A DNA stretch of 64,000 nucleotides from Phorcysia thermohydrogeniphila (GTDB lineage Bacteria; Aquificota; Aquificia; Desulfurobacteriales; Desulfurobacteriaceae). Below the pieces are notes generated by a model. That model had not been told where the DNA came from. It made no database searches and saw only the letters and a program-made list of their open reading frames with translations. A program made the position numbers and the translations under genes. Shown piece after piece: positions 59,407 to 63,527 of this stretch. Location: the NCBI RefSeq assembly GCF_004339575.1, contig NZ_SMFV01000005.1, positions 1 through 64,000 of the forward strand, in the 5' to 3' direction. Numbering within the stretch: the first letter of the stretch is position 1; every line of letters starts with the position of its first letter.

Positions 59407-59439
59407 ATGTTATAATCTTATAAAGGTTTGGGGATTATT

Positions 59440-60087
59440 ATGGAGTTTTTAAGGCAGATTCCGATTTTTTCAGGCCTTACCAAGGAGCAGCTTGAGAGTC
59501 TGGCGAATATTTCAGTCCTGAGGAACTACCCAAAGGGAACGGTTATATTTAACCCTTCTCAAAAAGCTGAAGGTTTTTACGCTCTTAAATCGGGCAAGGT
59601 GAAAATATACAGGACAAACCGTGGCAAAGAGCAGATAATCAGGATATTTACTGCACCTGCCTTTTTTGGAGAAGCAGCAGGTTTTATGGGTTCTAACTTT
59701 CCAGCTTGGGCTGAGGCCATAGAGGATTCAGAGGTTGTTTTTATTCCAAGGAAGGCCTTCATTCAACTTATGAAAGTTGACCCCGAAATTGCTATGAGAC
59801 TTATGGCCGTTATGGCACAAAGGCTTGTTTACCTTACGAATGTTATTGAAAGCCTTTCCCTTAAGGACGCTCTCTCTAAGGTAGCCTCTTACATCTTAAG
59901 GCAGGCTCAGGAGAAAGAAGGAGAAGAGTTTGTTTTCAGGACAAACCTTGCAGCTATGGAGCTTGGTTTGACTAAAGAAACCGTTTCAAGGATGTTGTCA
60001 AGACTTAAAAGTTTGGGGGCTATTGAAAAGTCAGGAAGTAAGGTAAAGATAAAGAACTTAAAGTTGCTTAAAGACTTGGCTGTTTAA
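59440..60087 (+). CDS. Crp/Fnr-family transcription regulator, cysteine-free
   Basis: 215 residues. Cyclic-nucleotide-type beta barrel (residues ~10-115: LRNYPKGTVIFNPSQKAEGFYALKSGKVKIYR, FFGEAAGF), long dimer helix (~120-150), then a winged HTH with LGLTKETVSRMLSRLKSLGAI. The recognition helix E-x-x-S-R is that of FNR/DNR-type proteins that read TTGAY-N4-RTCAA. It has no Cys at all, so no Fe-S cluster as in FNR; the arginine-serine cAMP pocket of CRP is also absent. A DNR/NnrR/HcpR-like haem-NO sensor is a reasonable guess. ATG 59440. Its end overlaps ygbA (convergent) by 20 bases. Confidence 0.88.
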   Translation: MEFLRQIPIFSGLTKEQLESLANISVLRNYPKGTVIFNPSQKAEGFYALKSGKVKIYRTNRGKEQIIRIFTAPAFFGEAAGFMGSNFPAWAEAIEDSEVVFIPRKAFIQLMKVDPEIAMRLMAVMAQRLVYLTNVIESLSLKDALSKVASYILRQAQEKEGEEFVFRTNLAAMELGLTKETVSRMLSRLKSLGAIEKSGSKVKIKNLKLLKDLAV

Positions 60088-60394
60088 ATGAGAACCTTTC
60101 TTTTATCTCGTGTATGAGCCAGCCTATCGGGTCGTAGATGAGGAGCCTTGGACCGCTGAACCTCATTACTTCCTTTATCTTTTCCCTCATTTCTGGCCTG
60201 TAGCAATGGATGGGACACTTCTTACAGGTTGGTTTATTTTCTCCAAAAGGGCAAAGGTCAAGCCTTTTAAAGGCGTACTCAAGGAGCTCCCTGCATTCGC
60301 TGCACAGTTTTCCACGTTCCTGTTTGTGCTTCCTCCAGCAGTAAATAGAAATCATTCTCTTTAAGGTTTCTCTTTCCCTCTCTACCGTGGACAT
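60068..60394 (-). CDS. ygbA: YgbA family ('nitrous oxide-stimulated promoter') protein
   Basis: 108 residues. LCSECRELLEYAFKRLDLCPFGENKPTCKKCPIHCYRPEMREKIKEVMRFSGPRLL is near-complete YgbA signature, with six ordered cysteines likely binding metal or Fe-S. In enterobacteria ygbA belongs to the NsrR nitrosative-stress regulon and aids recovery from NO. Here it lies between a Crp/Fnr regulator and the CooS-like gene, on the same strand as the latter. An inverted repeat covers its ribosome site and start. Confidence 0.88.
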   Translation of the reverse strand: MSTVERERETLKRMISIYCWRKHKQERGKLCSECRELLEYAFKRLDLCPFGENKPTCKKCPIHCYRPEMREKIKEVMRFSGPRLLIYDPIGWLIHEIKERFSFKQPSL

Positions 60395-60416: not shown

Positions 60417-60441
60417 AAAACCCCCTCCTAAGAGGAGGGGG
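60413..60441 (-). terminator. Terminator after cooS
   Basis: Minus strand: CCCCCTCCT, short loop, AGGAGGGGG (stem 60421-60429 with 60433-60441), then TTTTACATTTTT. Separates cooS from ygbA, which starts immediately after. Confidence 0.88.
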
Positions 60442-60459
60442 CTTGGAGGAGATAGCTGA

Positions 60460-62418
60460 TTATATACCGAGGGCTTCCCTCTTCTTCATGATGTGTTCTT
60501 CTATTCCGTTAGCTGCCTGAACTGGGTCATCGCCAACGGCAATCTTACCGCCTGTGAGGCTCTCAACTTCCTCTGTGAGGAGTTTCACGACCTTGTCAGA
60601 ACCGGTAACTGGAGGAACTGGTGATACGTGGGTATAGAGTCCCATGGCAACAGCAGAGAATCCGTCTATAACGGCCTTCTGCTCCATGTACTCAGGAGCA
60701 GTTACCGCTACTGGGAGCTGGGATGGGTCAACACCAAGGGCGTTAGCTATAGCTATAACGGTCATGATAATCCTTCCGGTGTCTGTACACGTTCCAAAGG
60801 AAAGAACCGGTGGAATACCGAGGGCCTTGCAGACGCCTGCAAGCTTAGGACCTGCGTACTTATCAACAGCTTCAAGAGTTTCAAGTCCAGCCTTCTGGAG
60901 TCCTGCGTTACCGCATCCAGCACCGATTACGAGGATATCCCTCTTAATGAGCTCCTTGGCTATCTGAACGGTCATGCTGTCCTGAGGACCGTTGCCAAGG
61001 GAGGTACAGTTAACGAGAGCAACAACTCCCTTAATGTCTCCGCTCTTTATGACTTCAAGGAGTGGATTGAGGCTTCCACCGAGGGCGTTAATGATAGCCT
61101 CTGCGGAAAATCCAACAATGGCCTTCTGCTTGAACTTTGATACGTCGGTCTTTGGAGCGTTCTTTCTCTCCTTGAAGTTCTCAATAGCGAGCCTGATTAT
61201 CTCTTTTGCAATTTCTGTTTCCTTGCCGGGCTTGTACTCAAGTTTAATTGAACCGGGGATACCCATAATGTTTGTAACGGCTATGAGCTTGAACTTGAAC
61301 TTGTCGGCGTACTCTTTAAGGTTTGCAAGAGAACAGTTCATATCCATTACAAAGGCGTCAACTGCACCAGTTGAGAGGAAGTACTCCATGGATATCCAGT
61401 TAGAGGTGAGTCCAACGAAGACGTCGTTGCATTCAAGCCTTGCCATCATTTCTTGACCAGTTTCAATGGAGCCTACTATCCTTATTCCTTTGGCTCCTGC
61501 TTCTTTTGCCATTTTTTGGATTTCAGGATCTTGAGCCAGTTTGACGAGGGCCATTCCTACGAAGGGCTCGTGTCCGTTGGGAAGGATGTTTACGTAGTCA
61601 GGGTCAAGAACTCCGAAGTCAACCTGACACTCGTGAGGTGAGGGTGTTCCGAATAGGGCGTCTTGAATGAGCTCTAATGGTACAAGTGAACCGAAAGCAG
61701 ATGCTACACCGTTCCTGAGAGCGGCAAGTGCTAAGGATACGTAATCTCCGTCGATGTTTGTCATTGAGCGGGTAACGGAGTCTACAAGCTCCTGCATTGG
61801 ACCTTTGGGCATAATGCCGAGCTTTCTGAATACCTCTTTCCTGCTCTCAGGAGCGAGCTTTTCAACGAAGATGGAGGTATCATTCTGGGAAAGGCTGTTA
61901 AGAACGCCTTCTGCAACTTTCTTTGCCTTTTCTTCAAGTGGAAGGGACTTATCTACGTCAAGGATGTCGGCAAGGAGGTCTATCTTTGAAGGGTCTTTTA
62001 TCTCGTATATAGTGTTACCCTTTGCAGTTTCAAGGAGTGTAAGAGCTGCTTCTCTACAGTGGTAGGTGTAGGCTGAAAGTCCCATGTTTGCCTTGATGAG
62101 GAGGTTCCTCATAACAATACCGTGAGCATCAATACCACATACGCCCCTTGGAGTTTGAGGTGTTATACGGCATGGACCCATTGAACAGAGTTGACATGAG
62201 ACACCTTCCTTACAGAACTTACACCTTACTTTTTCCATAGCTTCAAAACGGTCTGCTACGTTGCTGAGCTGGGCCTCTTTTACTTTTTGGTACATGTAGT
62301 TAACGCTTTCGTGAAAGCTGGGAACCTTTACTCCTACACCCGTGGCAAGGTCTGTCTCGGTGCAGAAATTTTCTTGATTCTGGTTTTTCTGGTTCCCTTT
62401 CTTGAAGAATCCGAACAT
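60460..62418 (-). CDS. cooS: CooS-family (anaerobic CO dehydrogenase-like) protein with hybrid-cluster-like ligand set
   Basis: 652 residues. N-terminal Fe-S region: Cys66 and Cys69 (CxxC, D-cluster place, not the Cx7C of Carboxydothermus), then Cys75, 78, 83, 94 for the B cluster. C-cluster region: His283 (NGHEP), Cys362 (DMNC), Cys471 (VNCTSLGNG), Cys502 (GAGCGNAG), Cys544 (FGTC) match His261, Cys333, 446, 476, 526; but VGICCTG is VGSIETG, so Cys295 is Glu319. The proton-relay His93 is Tyr117. A His+Glu+Cys set recalls the hybrid-cluster protein and the CODH-V-type proteins. No acsB, cooF or cooC nearby. Promoter carries an FNR-type box. CO oxidation is doubtful. Confidence 0.88.
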   Translation of the reverse strand: MFGFFKKGNQKNQNQENFCTETDLATGVGVKVPSFHESVNYMYQKVKEAQLSNVADRFEAMEKVRCKFCKEGVSCQLCSMGPCRITPQTPRGVCGIDAHGIVMRNLLIKANMGLSAYTYHCREAALTLLETAKGNTIYEIKDPSKIDLLADILDVDKSLPLEEKAKKVAEGVLNSLSQNDTSIFVEKLAPESRKEVFRKLGIMPKGPMQELVDSVTRSMTNIDGDYVSLALAALRNGVASAFGSLVPLELIQDALFGTPSPHECQVDFGVLDPDYVNILPNGHEPFVGMALVKLAQDPEIQKMAKEAGAKGIRIVGSIETGQEMMARLECNDVFVGLTSNWISMEYFLSTGAVDAFVMDMNCSLANLKEYADKFKFKLIAVTNIMGIPGSIKLEYKPGKETEIAKEIIRLAIENFKERKNAPKTDVSKFKQKAIVGFSAEAIINALGGSLNPLLEVIKSGDIKGVVALVNCTSLGNGPQDSMTVQIAKELIKRDILVIGAGCGNAGLQKAGLETLEAVDKYAGPKLAGVCKALGIPPVLSFGTCTDTGRIIMTVIAIANALGVDPSQLPVAVTAPEYMEQKAVIDGFSAVAMGLYTHVSPVPPVTGSDKVVKLLTEEVESLTGGKIAVGDDPVQAANGIEEHIMKKREALGI

Positions 62419-62479: not shown

Positions 62480-62495
62480 TTTGACTTAAGTCAAA
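62480..62495. promoter_or_regulatory. FNR/DNR-type palindrome between cooS and the NifX-like gene
   Basis: TTTGACTTAAGTCAAA is a perfect 16-base palindrome (TTGAC-N4-GTCAA core). On the cooS side TATTTT (62458-62453) gives a start near 62446, placing the centre at about -41.5 (class II activation). On the other side TATAAT (62535-62540) puts it near -60. The Crp/Fnr protein at 59440 is the obvious candidate binder. Confidence 0.75.
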
Positions 62496-62568: not shown

Positions 62569-62943
62569 ATGAGAATTGCTGTTCCTGTTCTTGATACAGA
62601 AGTTGGTGGAAGGAGGCTTGTTAATGCCCACTTTGGAAAGTCTAACCTCTTTGCCATTGTTGATACCGCCTCTGGTAGCGTTGAGATTGTTGAAAATCCC
62701 GGCCTTCACGTAGAGAGGGGAAGAGGCGTTTTTATAGCGGAGATGTTTAAGGAGAAAAAGGTTGATGTTGTTCTCGTTAAGGAGATGGGGCCCGGTGCAT
62801 TTGACAAGGTGAGAAACCGGTTGGGAATAAAGGTTTACCTCGTTCCGCCAGAGGTGAAGTTCCTTGACGATGCCGTAGAGAAGTTTAAAAGGGGAGAACT
62901 CCCAGAGCTCTTAGAGCCAAACGAAGACGAACACAGAGCTTAG
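62569..62943 (+). CDS. NifX/NafY-type (dinitrogenase Fe-Mo cofactor) domain protein
   Basis: 124 residues. MRIAVPVLDTEVGGRRLVNAHFGKSNLFAIVD opens the NifX/NifB-C fold (the conserved HFG), with RGVFIAEMFKEKKVDVVLVKEMGPGAFDKVRNRLGIKVYL. Members bind metal clusters in transit; stand-alone forms occur in many non-diazotrophs. Divergent from cooS and sharing its palindrome, so a role with that Fe-S enzyme is possible. AGGAGGTGGG precedes ATG 62569. Confidence 0.85.
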   Translation: MRIAVPVLDTEVGGRRLVNAHFGKSNLFAIVDTASGSVEIVENPGLHVERGRGVFIAEMFKEKKVDVVLVKEMGPGAFDKVRNRLGIKVYLVPPEVKFLDDAVEKFKRGELPELLEPNEDEHRA

Positions 62944-62954
62944 AGGCTTAAAAA

Positions 62955-63527
62955 ATGAAGTGTCATAGGTGTTCTTCGCCCGGTTGCTACAGGGAAGGTA
63001 AAAAGTGTAAAGAGTTACAGGAGCTTAAAGAGCTCTGCGAGTTTGAAAGGAGACTTCTTGAAGTTTCCTCAGATATAGAGAGGGAGTTTTACTGTAAGCT
63101 GACGAGGCTTGAGGAGCTCTTAGAGTTTGCGAATAGGATGGGGTTTAAGAAGGTAGGCATAGCTTTCTGCATAGGACTGTTTGAAGAGGTAAAGTTCGTT
63201 GCAGAAGTTTTTGAGCGTCGCGGTTTTGAGGTTTTCTCTGTTGCCTGCAAGGTAGGAGCTATTGACAAGTCAGAGCTTAACCTCAAAAAAATGCAGCCGT
63301 GTAAGCTGGAGGCTGCCTGTAATCCTGTAGGTCAGGCGGAAGTTCTTAATGAAGTTGGCACTGAAATGAACGTTATCGTTGGCCTCTGCGTCGGCCACGA
63401 CATGCTCTTTCAGATGTATTCAAGAGCTCCTGTAACAACGCTGATAGTTAAAGATAGAGTTCTTGCCCACAATCCAGCAGGCGCTATTTACAGCGGATAC
63501 TACAGAAAGAAACTTCTTGGCCGCTAA
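62955..63527 (+). CDS. DUF1847 putative metal-binding protein
   Basis: 190 residues. N-terminal Cys knuckles CHRCSSPGCYREGKKC, then a Rossmann-like body: KKVGIAFCIGLFEEVKFVAEVFERRGFEVFSVACKVG, LEAACNPVGQAEVLNE, NVIVGLCVGHDMLFQMYSRAPVTTLIVKDRVLAHNPAGAIYS. Seven or more conserved cysteines suggest Fe-S or zinc. Typical of strict anaerobes; function unknown. Eleven bases after the NifX-like gene, so same operon. Confidence 0.85.
   Translation: MKCHRCSSPGCYREGKKCKELQELKELCEFERRLLEVSSDIEREFYCKLTRLEELLEFANRMGFKKVGIAFCIGLFEEVKFVAEVFERRGFEVFSVACKVGAIDKSELNLKKMQPCKLEAACNPVGQAEVLNEVGTEMNVIVGLCVGHDMLFQMYSRAPVTTLIVKDRVLAHNPAGAIYSGYYRKKLLGR

Follow-up and report, generated by a model that had tools for sequence, protein, structure and literature searches.

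Gene Content of the Locus

The window analyzed here is a 64,000-nucleotide stretch of DNA from Phorcysia thermohydrogeniphila, a member of the Desulfurobacteriaceae (Aquificota). Near its end, the reverse strand carries a cooS gene (60460..62418; ATG start) for a 652-residue Prismane/carbon monoxide dehydrogenase (CODH)-family protein of the CooS-V type (structural group D-1). The next gene downstream, in the same orientation, encodes a 108-residue YgbA_NO family protein (60068..60394; PF11756, 133.9 bits). The gap between the two genes contains a terminator-like hairpin (60418..60444, reverse strand; -22 kcal/mol, z -2.5), and GC-rich inverted repeats were seen by eye at the same place in most of the Desulfurobacteriaceae loci inspected. 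Because this hairpin parts cooS from ygbA, a single transcript should not be assumed. A conserved neighbor on the forward strand (59428..60087; PF00027, PF13545) encodes a Crp/FNR-family regulator that has no cysteine and whose recognition helix reads LTKETVSRMLSRL. It is convergent with ygbA in the window, whereas in genus g4 it is collinear with ygbA and follows it.

On the other side of cooS, a divergent gene for a Nitro_FeMo-Co (NifX/NafY-like) protein (62569..62943, forward strand; PF02579) has its upstream region in common with cooS and is adjoined by a DUF1847 gene (62955..63527, forward strand; PF08901). The NifX-like gene is a conserved neighbor in most family genomes; the link of either gene to cooS is uncertain. 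No ferredoxin or CooC-like ATPase gene was recognizable by reading beside the window cooS, unlike the second CODH of Desulfurobacterium thermolithotrophum. That CODH (L138, G123:C1:412000-424000) looks canonical, and ferredoxin, NuoEFG-like, and CooC-like genes, also named by reading, adjoin it.

In profile searches, the 652-residue protein scores 804.5 bits against TIGR01702 (cut-off 478) and 500 bits against PF03063 (Prismane). Its score against TIGR01703, the profile for hybrid cluster protein (HCP), is 55.2 bits, far below the cut-off of 360.8, which rules out HCP proper. TIGR01702 cannot tell CooS-V from CODH and still labels the window protein a carbon monoxide dehydrogenase. The closest match in the PDB is CooS-V (7b7q; 8e-207, 53% identity). 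An AlphaFold model (mean pLDDT 91.8) leads to the same protein by fold, with 7b9a and 7b7q at the top of the Foldseek search (TM 0.93-0.94, rmsd 1.2-1.3) and values of 0.94 and 1.2 for the best match. Homologues that are 78-98% identical were found in named Desulfurobacteriaceae records.

Residues of the Metal Clusters

The sequence-only reading had described this protein as a CooS homologue in which Glu replaces the C-cluster residue Cys295, and had named a displaced Cys among the findings that would overturn the claim. The protein was aligned with CooS-V of Carboxydothermus and with three canonical CODHs, namely those of Thermococcus and Desulfovibrio and the Carboxydothermus CODH-IV. Glu319 (codon 61462..61464, reverse strand) falls in the place of CODH Cys295, which corresponds to Glu295 of CooS-V and Glu268 of HCP, as that reading had proposed; all three canonical CODHs have Cys in this column. 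The GSIETGQ segment runs flush with the G(I/L/M)CCTGN motif with zero gap, and no displaced Cys fills the Cys295 place. The alignment also confirms the B-cluster cysteines (Cys75, Cys78, Cys83, and Cys94), the remaining four C-cluster cysteines and the His, the type III (CxxC) D-cluster motif formed by Cys66 and Cys69, and Tyr117 in place of the acid-base His. The set of five Cys and one His that characterizes the C-cluster of Ni,Fe-CODHs is thus incomplete, with Glu319 standing for Cys295.

The ligand set of a hybrid cluster, by comparison, is complete. His283 (codon 61570..61572, reverse strand) aligns with CODH His261 and CooS-V His259, and further pairs between the window protein and CooS-V of Carboxydothermus hydrogenoformans (CooS-V_Ch) are N361/N337, C362/C338, C471/C449, C502/C480, and C544/C521. 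The alignment revealed one residue that had been overlooked before, Glu579 (codon 60682..60684, reverse strand), which corresponds to CooS-V Glu556 and HCP Glu494 and would be the second hybrid-cluster carboxylate; its role is taken from the CooS-V structure (PMC9311411). Glu579 sits two residues before Lys581, which is also kept. With Glu579 present as well, all nine hybrid-cluster residues are in place, including one His, two Glu, and four Cys as ligands, by alignment to CooS-V_Ch and by the published correspondence between CooS-V and HCP.

Glu319 is found in 107/107 close homologues, which represent several phyla of both Bacteria and Archaea, and Glu579 wherever that position is covered. 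The substitution is hence no sequencing accident. In a 42-row maximum-likelihood tree, a branch supported at 100/100 separates the rows with Glu from all others. The window protein lies deep among the Glu rows, in the same clade as CooS-V_Ch on a separate sub-branch.

Relation to Group D-1, CooS-V, and HCP

Proteins of this kind have been described before. A 2019 survey of Ni-CODHs defined group D-1 by a type III D-cluster, by Glu and Tyr in the places of Cys1 and His, by a Lys, and by an extra Glu two residues before that Lys (PMC6344411), and the window protein shows every tabulated signature. The structure of CooS-V_Ch was solved in 2022 (PDB 7B7Q, 7B7T, 7B95, 7B97, and 7B9A), revealing a Ni-free enzyme with a redox-gated channel and a [4Fe-3S-nO] cluster whose arrangement changes with the redox state (PMC9311411). 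CooS-V_Ch catalyzes neither CO oxidation nor CO2 reduction; it reduces hydroxylamine slowly (kcat 0.13 per s), NO reduction was undetectable, and its potentials are lower than those of HCP by about 300 mV; the authors suggest a different role (PMC9311411). The C295E variant of CODH-II is likewise Ni-poor and inactive with CO (cited in PMC9311411), and a 2026 survey already leaves such sequences out of the Ni-CODHs (PMC13240472). Since the Glu type has been defined and its structure solved, the class is known and the window gene is a further member. The sequence-only reading had put the Glu-for-Cys type forward as a likely case; the type itself stands, as the already established group D-1 (PMC6344411).

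Likeness to CooS-V_Ch extends to the fold, all hybrid-cluster residues, the CxxC D-cluster, the Tyr in place of the acid-base His, and the Lys. The spacing between the last two B-cluster Cys differs, being ten residues in the window protein and twelve in CooS-V_Ch, and the window gene, unlike that of CooS-V_Ch, has a ygbA neighbor and an HcpR-type box. With HCP, the window protein shares the cluster ligands, including both Glu, an HcpR-type control box, and likely a niche. Its overall sequence, length, and bridging D-cluster, in contrast, are of the CODH type. Residue identity, tree, fold, and a solved relative at 53% identity (PMC9311411) together bear out the earlier proposal of a non-CO, hybrid-cluster-type enzyme. 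Judging from that relative, the window protein very probably carries a Ni-free hybrid cluster and performs no CO chemistry.

Distribution and Genomic Context

A Glu-type cooS is present in 22/22 Desulfurobacteriaceae genomes, and in each of them ygbA adjoins it downstream. In 20 of the 22, profile searches found no second Prismane-family protein, neither CODH nor HCP, so that cooS-V is usually the only gene of its kind in the genome. According to a published remark, CooS-V types are confined to genomes that also have another CODH; the window gene, by contrast, encodes the sole Prismane-family protein of its own genome. Neither acetyl-CoA synthase (PF03598) nor a heme-copper oxidase/NO reductase was found in any of the 22 genomes, and the former result rules out a CODH/acetyl-CoA synthase link. 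Flavodiiron proteins, which could handle NO, are also found in family genomes.

In enterobacteria, ygbA is an NsrR target that NO or nitrate induces together with hcp (PMC2884951, PMC5320621). Among 136 Aquificota, ygbA and Glu-type CooS share the same 8/30 genera (Fisher p 1.7e-7 by genus, with kinship ignored). Their adjacency is narrower: in the sister genus, ygbA lies away from cooS, and in a sample of 80 loci, ygbA was not found beside any D-1 gene from outside the Desulfurobacteriaceae, on which ground a ygbA link common to all D-1 genes was rejected. Six archaeal D-1 loci have a flavodiiron protein and rubrerythrin as neighbors, and fifteen others a ferredoxin-like protein. The D-1 survey reported links to COG1063, HypA, and HypB (PMC6344411), whereas the neighbors of the window gene are YgbA, the Crp-family regulator, and the NifX-like protein. 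One CooS from a public record titled as a Gammaproteobacteria MAG (L040, QOAS01000099.1) matches an Aquificota genome of family f5 (G106), and this MAG is probably mislabeled.

G112, a sister-genus genome, has no match to Glu-type CooS; the other members of its genus with a match have CooS-V. G112 encodes a true HCP (L135 1531-3540; TIGR01703, 474 bits) that is convergent with a Crp-family gene, and it keeps ygbA elsewhere in the genome (L139). This single case looks like an exchange of CooS-V and HCP.

A Predicted Control Site

A palindrome, TTGACTTAAGTCAA (62481..62494), lies 62 nt upstream of the start codon of cooS and matches the HcpR-type box TTGACnnnnGTCAA (TTGAC-N4-GTCAA), a consensus predicted for hcp control in delta-proteobacteria (PMC1274295). 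In 19/21 family genomes with upstream sequence, the pattern TTGAYnnnnRTCAA lies 57-86 nt ahead of the start codon; in one record (L013), the gap was measured from a misplaced start. In the sister genus, only 1/4 genomes tested has the box. Complete genomes contain about 4-12 copies of the pattern, and the P. thermohydrogeniphila genome contains five. Four of these were examined, the fifth (C6:86838) lying outside this set, and among the four an exact TTGAC-N4-GTCAA is seen only at cooS. Two of the other three are within genes, one of them accC, and the third is between guaA and a gene for a TolC-like protein. A wide regulon for this palindrome is ruled out from these four sites, two of which are in coding sequence. 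The accC match recurs at the same place in several genomes (L121, L122, L124, and L131) because the protein is conserved, and such coding conservation is a trap for motif scans.

In the recognition helix of the Crp-family neighbor (LTKETVSR), Lys and Glu occupy by eye the places of CRP R180 and E181. With Glu at the E181 place and no Arg at the R180 place, a TTGA half-site is expected under a published rule (PMC1274295). The context makes it fairly probable that the cooS-V box is regulated by an NO/nitrite-sensing Crp-family protein and that the substrate of the enzyme is a nitrogen species.

Nitrogen Metabolism of the Host

The contig continues beyond the window (L137, C5 64001-82000), and some 8-17 kb further on it carries a nap cluster (NapC/NrfH-like, NapA, and NapH) together with an HAO-like multiheme cytochrome. 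Close homologues of the latter occur in 14/21 other family genomes, and no NrfA reaches the cut-off in any family genome. This combination makes nitrate ammonification of the reverse-HURM type a candidate pathway. In the reverse-HURM proposal for Nautilia, HCP reduces hydroxylamine (PMC3701875), and the resemblance makes hydroxylamine a serious rival substrate for CooS-V. NapA has no match in genus g4 and only weak NapA-like matches in D. thermolithotrophum, and both keep cooS-V. These two cases rule out a strict tie to nitrate respiration. Because cooS-V is kept without full NapA, nitrate respiration is not required, and stress defense fits better than a respiratory step.

Proposed Function and Alternatives

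Our studies lead us to propose, with a probability of roughly 65%, that in the Desulfurobacteriaceae a Ni-free CooS-V-type enzyme replaces HCP and, under HcpR/FNR-like control, removes reactive nitrogen species. The CODH scaffold would hold a Ni-free Fe-S-O hybrid cluster at the C-cluster site, bound by His283, Glu319, Cys362, Cys471, Cys502, Cys544, and Glu579. Electrons would reach this cluster through the B-cluster and the bridging [2Fe-2S] D-cluster, and the enzyme would neither oxidize CO nor reduce CO2. Having taken the place of HCP, CooS-V would be induced through the HcpR/FNR-like box, either jointly with ygbA or in parallel to it, and would reductively remove NO and/or hydroxylamine, whether leaked from nitrate ammonification or environmental. 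The sequence-only reading had suggested action on nitrogen oxides or another small molecule. The neighborhood and the predicted control site favor the nitrogen-oxide part of that suggestion; the weak hydroxylamine reduction and undetected NO reductase activity of the purified relative (PMC9311411) speak against it. The counter-evidence to a nitrogen-species role consists mainly of these weak activities of CooS-V_Ch, the only relative tested.

The same genomic context could be read as that of a respiratory enzyme, with CooS-V as the cytoplasmic hydroxylamine reductase that ends nitrate ammonification: Nap would yield nitrite, an octaheme HAO-like protein would convert nitrite to hydroxylamine, and CooS-V would form ammonium. 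The nap cluster and HAO-like cytochrome on the same contig, the spread of the HAO-like protein in the family, the lack of NrfA at the cut-off in all family genomes and of HCP in 20/22, and the precedent in Nautilia (PMC3701875) are consistent with this scheme, as is the nitrite-to-ammonium step left unassigned in Thermovibrio ammonificans (PMC5441870). However, the kcat of 0.13 per s measured for CooS-V_Ch (PMC9311411) is low for an enzyme carrying a respiratory flux, genomes that lack a full NapA retain the gene, and T. ammonificans has a reported NirA-type nitrite reductase (PMC5441870). The box and ygbA also resemble stress control rather than respiration, and we consider this scheme unlikely. 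Less likely still is a redox- or O2/peroxide-responsive protein, either a sensor or an oxygen-stress reductase, with a morphing cluster that would open and close as the redox state changes and for which nitrogen species are incidental. The redox-gated channel and very low potentials of CooS-V (PMC9311411) would suit such a protein, redox sensing has been suggested for clade D (PMC13056359), and the flavodiiron protein and rubrerythrin at archaeal D-1 loci also serve in O2 defense. Yet the regulons in which ygbA and the HcpR-type box have been described are those of nitrosative stress, and a separate electron chain, which would be superfluous in a sensor, is conserved here.

It is very improbable that the protein is a working Ni,Fe-CODH in which Glu serves as an alternative ligand and which provides the CO used in carbon fixation, as has been assumed for the type V CodH of T. 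ammonificans. The fold and most ligands are CODH-like, and the T. ammonificans CodH is expressed in the proteome (PMC5441870). Against this, Cys295 is replaced, CODH-II with the corresponding C295E exchange contains little Ni and shows no activity with CO (cited in PMC9311411), CooS-V_Ch is inactive with both CO and CO2 (PMC9311411), acetyl-CoA synthase occurs in 0/22 genomes, and neither a ferredoxin nor a CooC-like ATPase gene is recognizable alongside by reading.

The enzyme class itself has already been described; what is new here is the genomic context, namely the ygbA neighbor, the box, and the absence of HCP. The structure of the CooS-V type has been solved and its physiological role has so far been unassigned, and these three features give it a concrete, testable role. 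We regard as evenly balanced a wider proposal, in which CooS-V replaced HCP family-wide as the NO/hydroxylamine enzyme under an HcpR-type switch. HCP function would then have arisen independently for a second time, starting from the CODH scaffold, and the "CodH" behind claims of CO fixation for the family and the Aquificota ancestor would be this enzyme.

Implications for CO Fixation in the Aquificota

The sequence-only reading had warned that such genes in Aquificota can be counted as evidence for CO fixation by the Wood-Ljungdahl route, and one such case is in print. The publication on the type V CodH of T. ammonificans (Theam_1337) credits this protein with the residues that coordinate NiFeS and with the conversion of CO2 to CO, and takes it as evidence that the Aquificota ancestor had a CO-fixing pathway (PMC5441870). 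The homologue that we take as Theam_1337 (L007) is 89% identical to the window protein, with the same Glu and the same neighbors, and the alignment does not support the published reading of its NiFeS residues. Because the Thermovibrio CodH appears to have no nickel-site Cys and the family has no acetyl-CoA synthase, a main support for a reductive acetyl-CoA pathway is removed. The argument for a CO-based pathway in Thermovibrio and in the Aquificota ancestor (PMC5441870) is thereby undercut.

The sole PF03598 match among the 136 Aquificota (G049:C86:1226-1708, L116) is in family f3 and may be assembly contamination. Another deviant CooS group, 40-43% identical, occurs in Aquificota families f3 and f4 (L028, L029, L030, and L031). 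It keeps Cys295 (GSLCTGQ), reads APEYYNNDA at the catalytic Lys, which is replaced by Asp, and has Asp at the place of His120 of the window protein. This group may be the Persephonella CodH described as "one of a kind" (PMC5441870).
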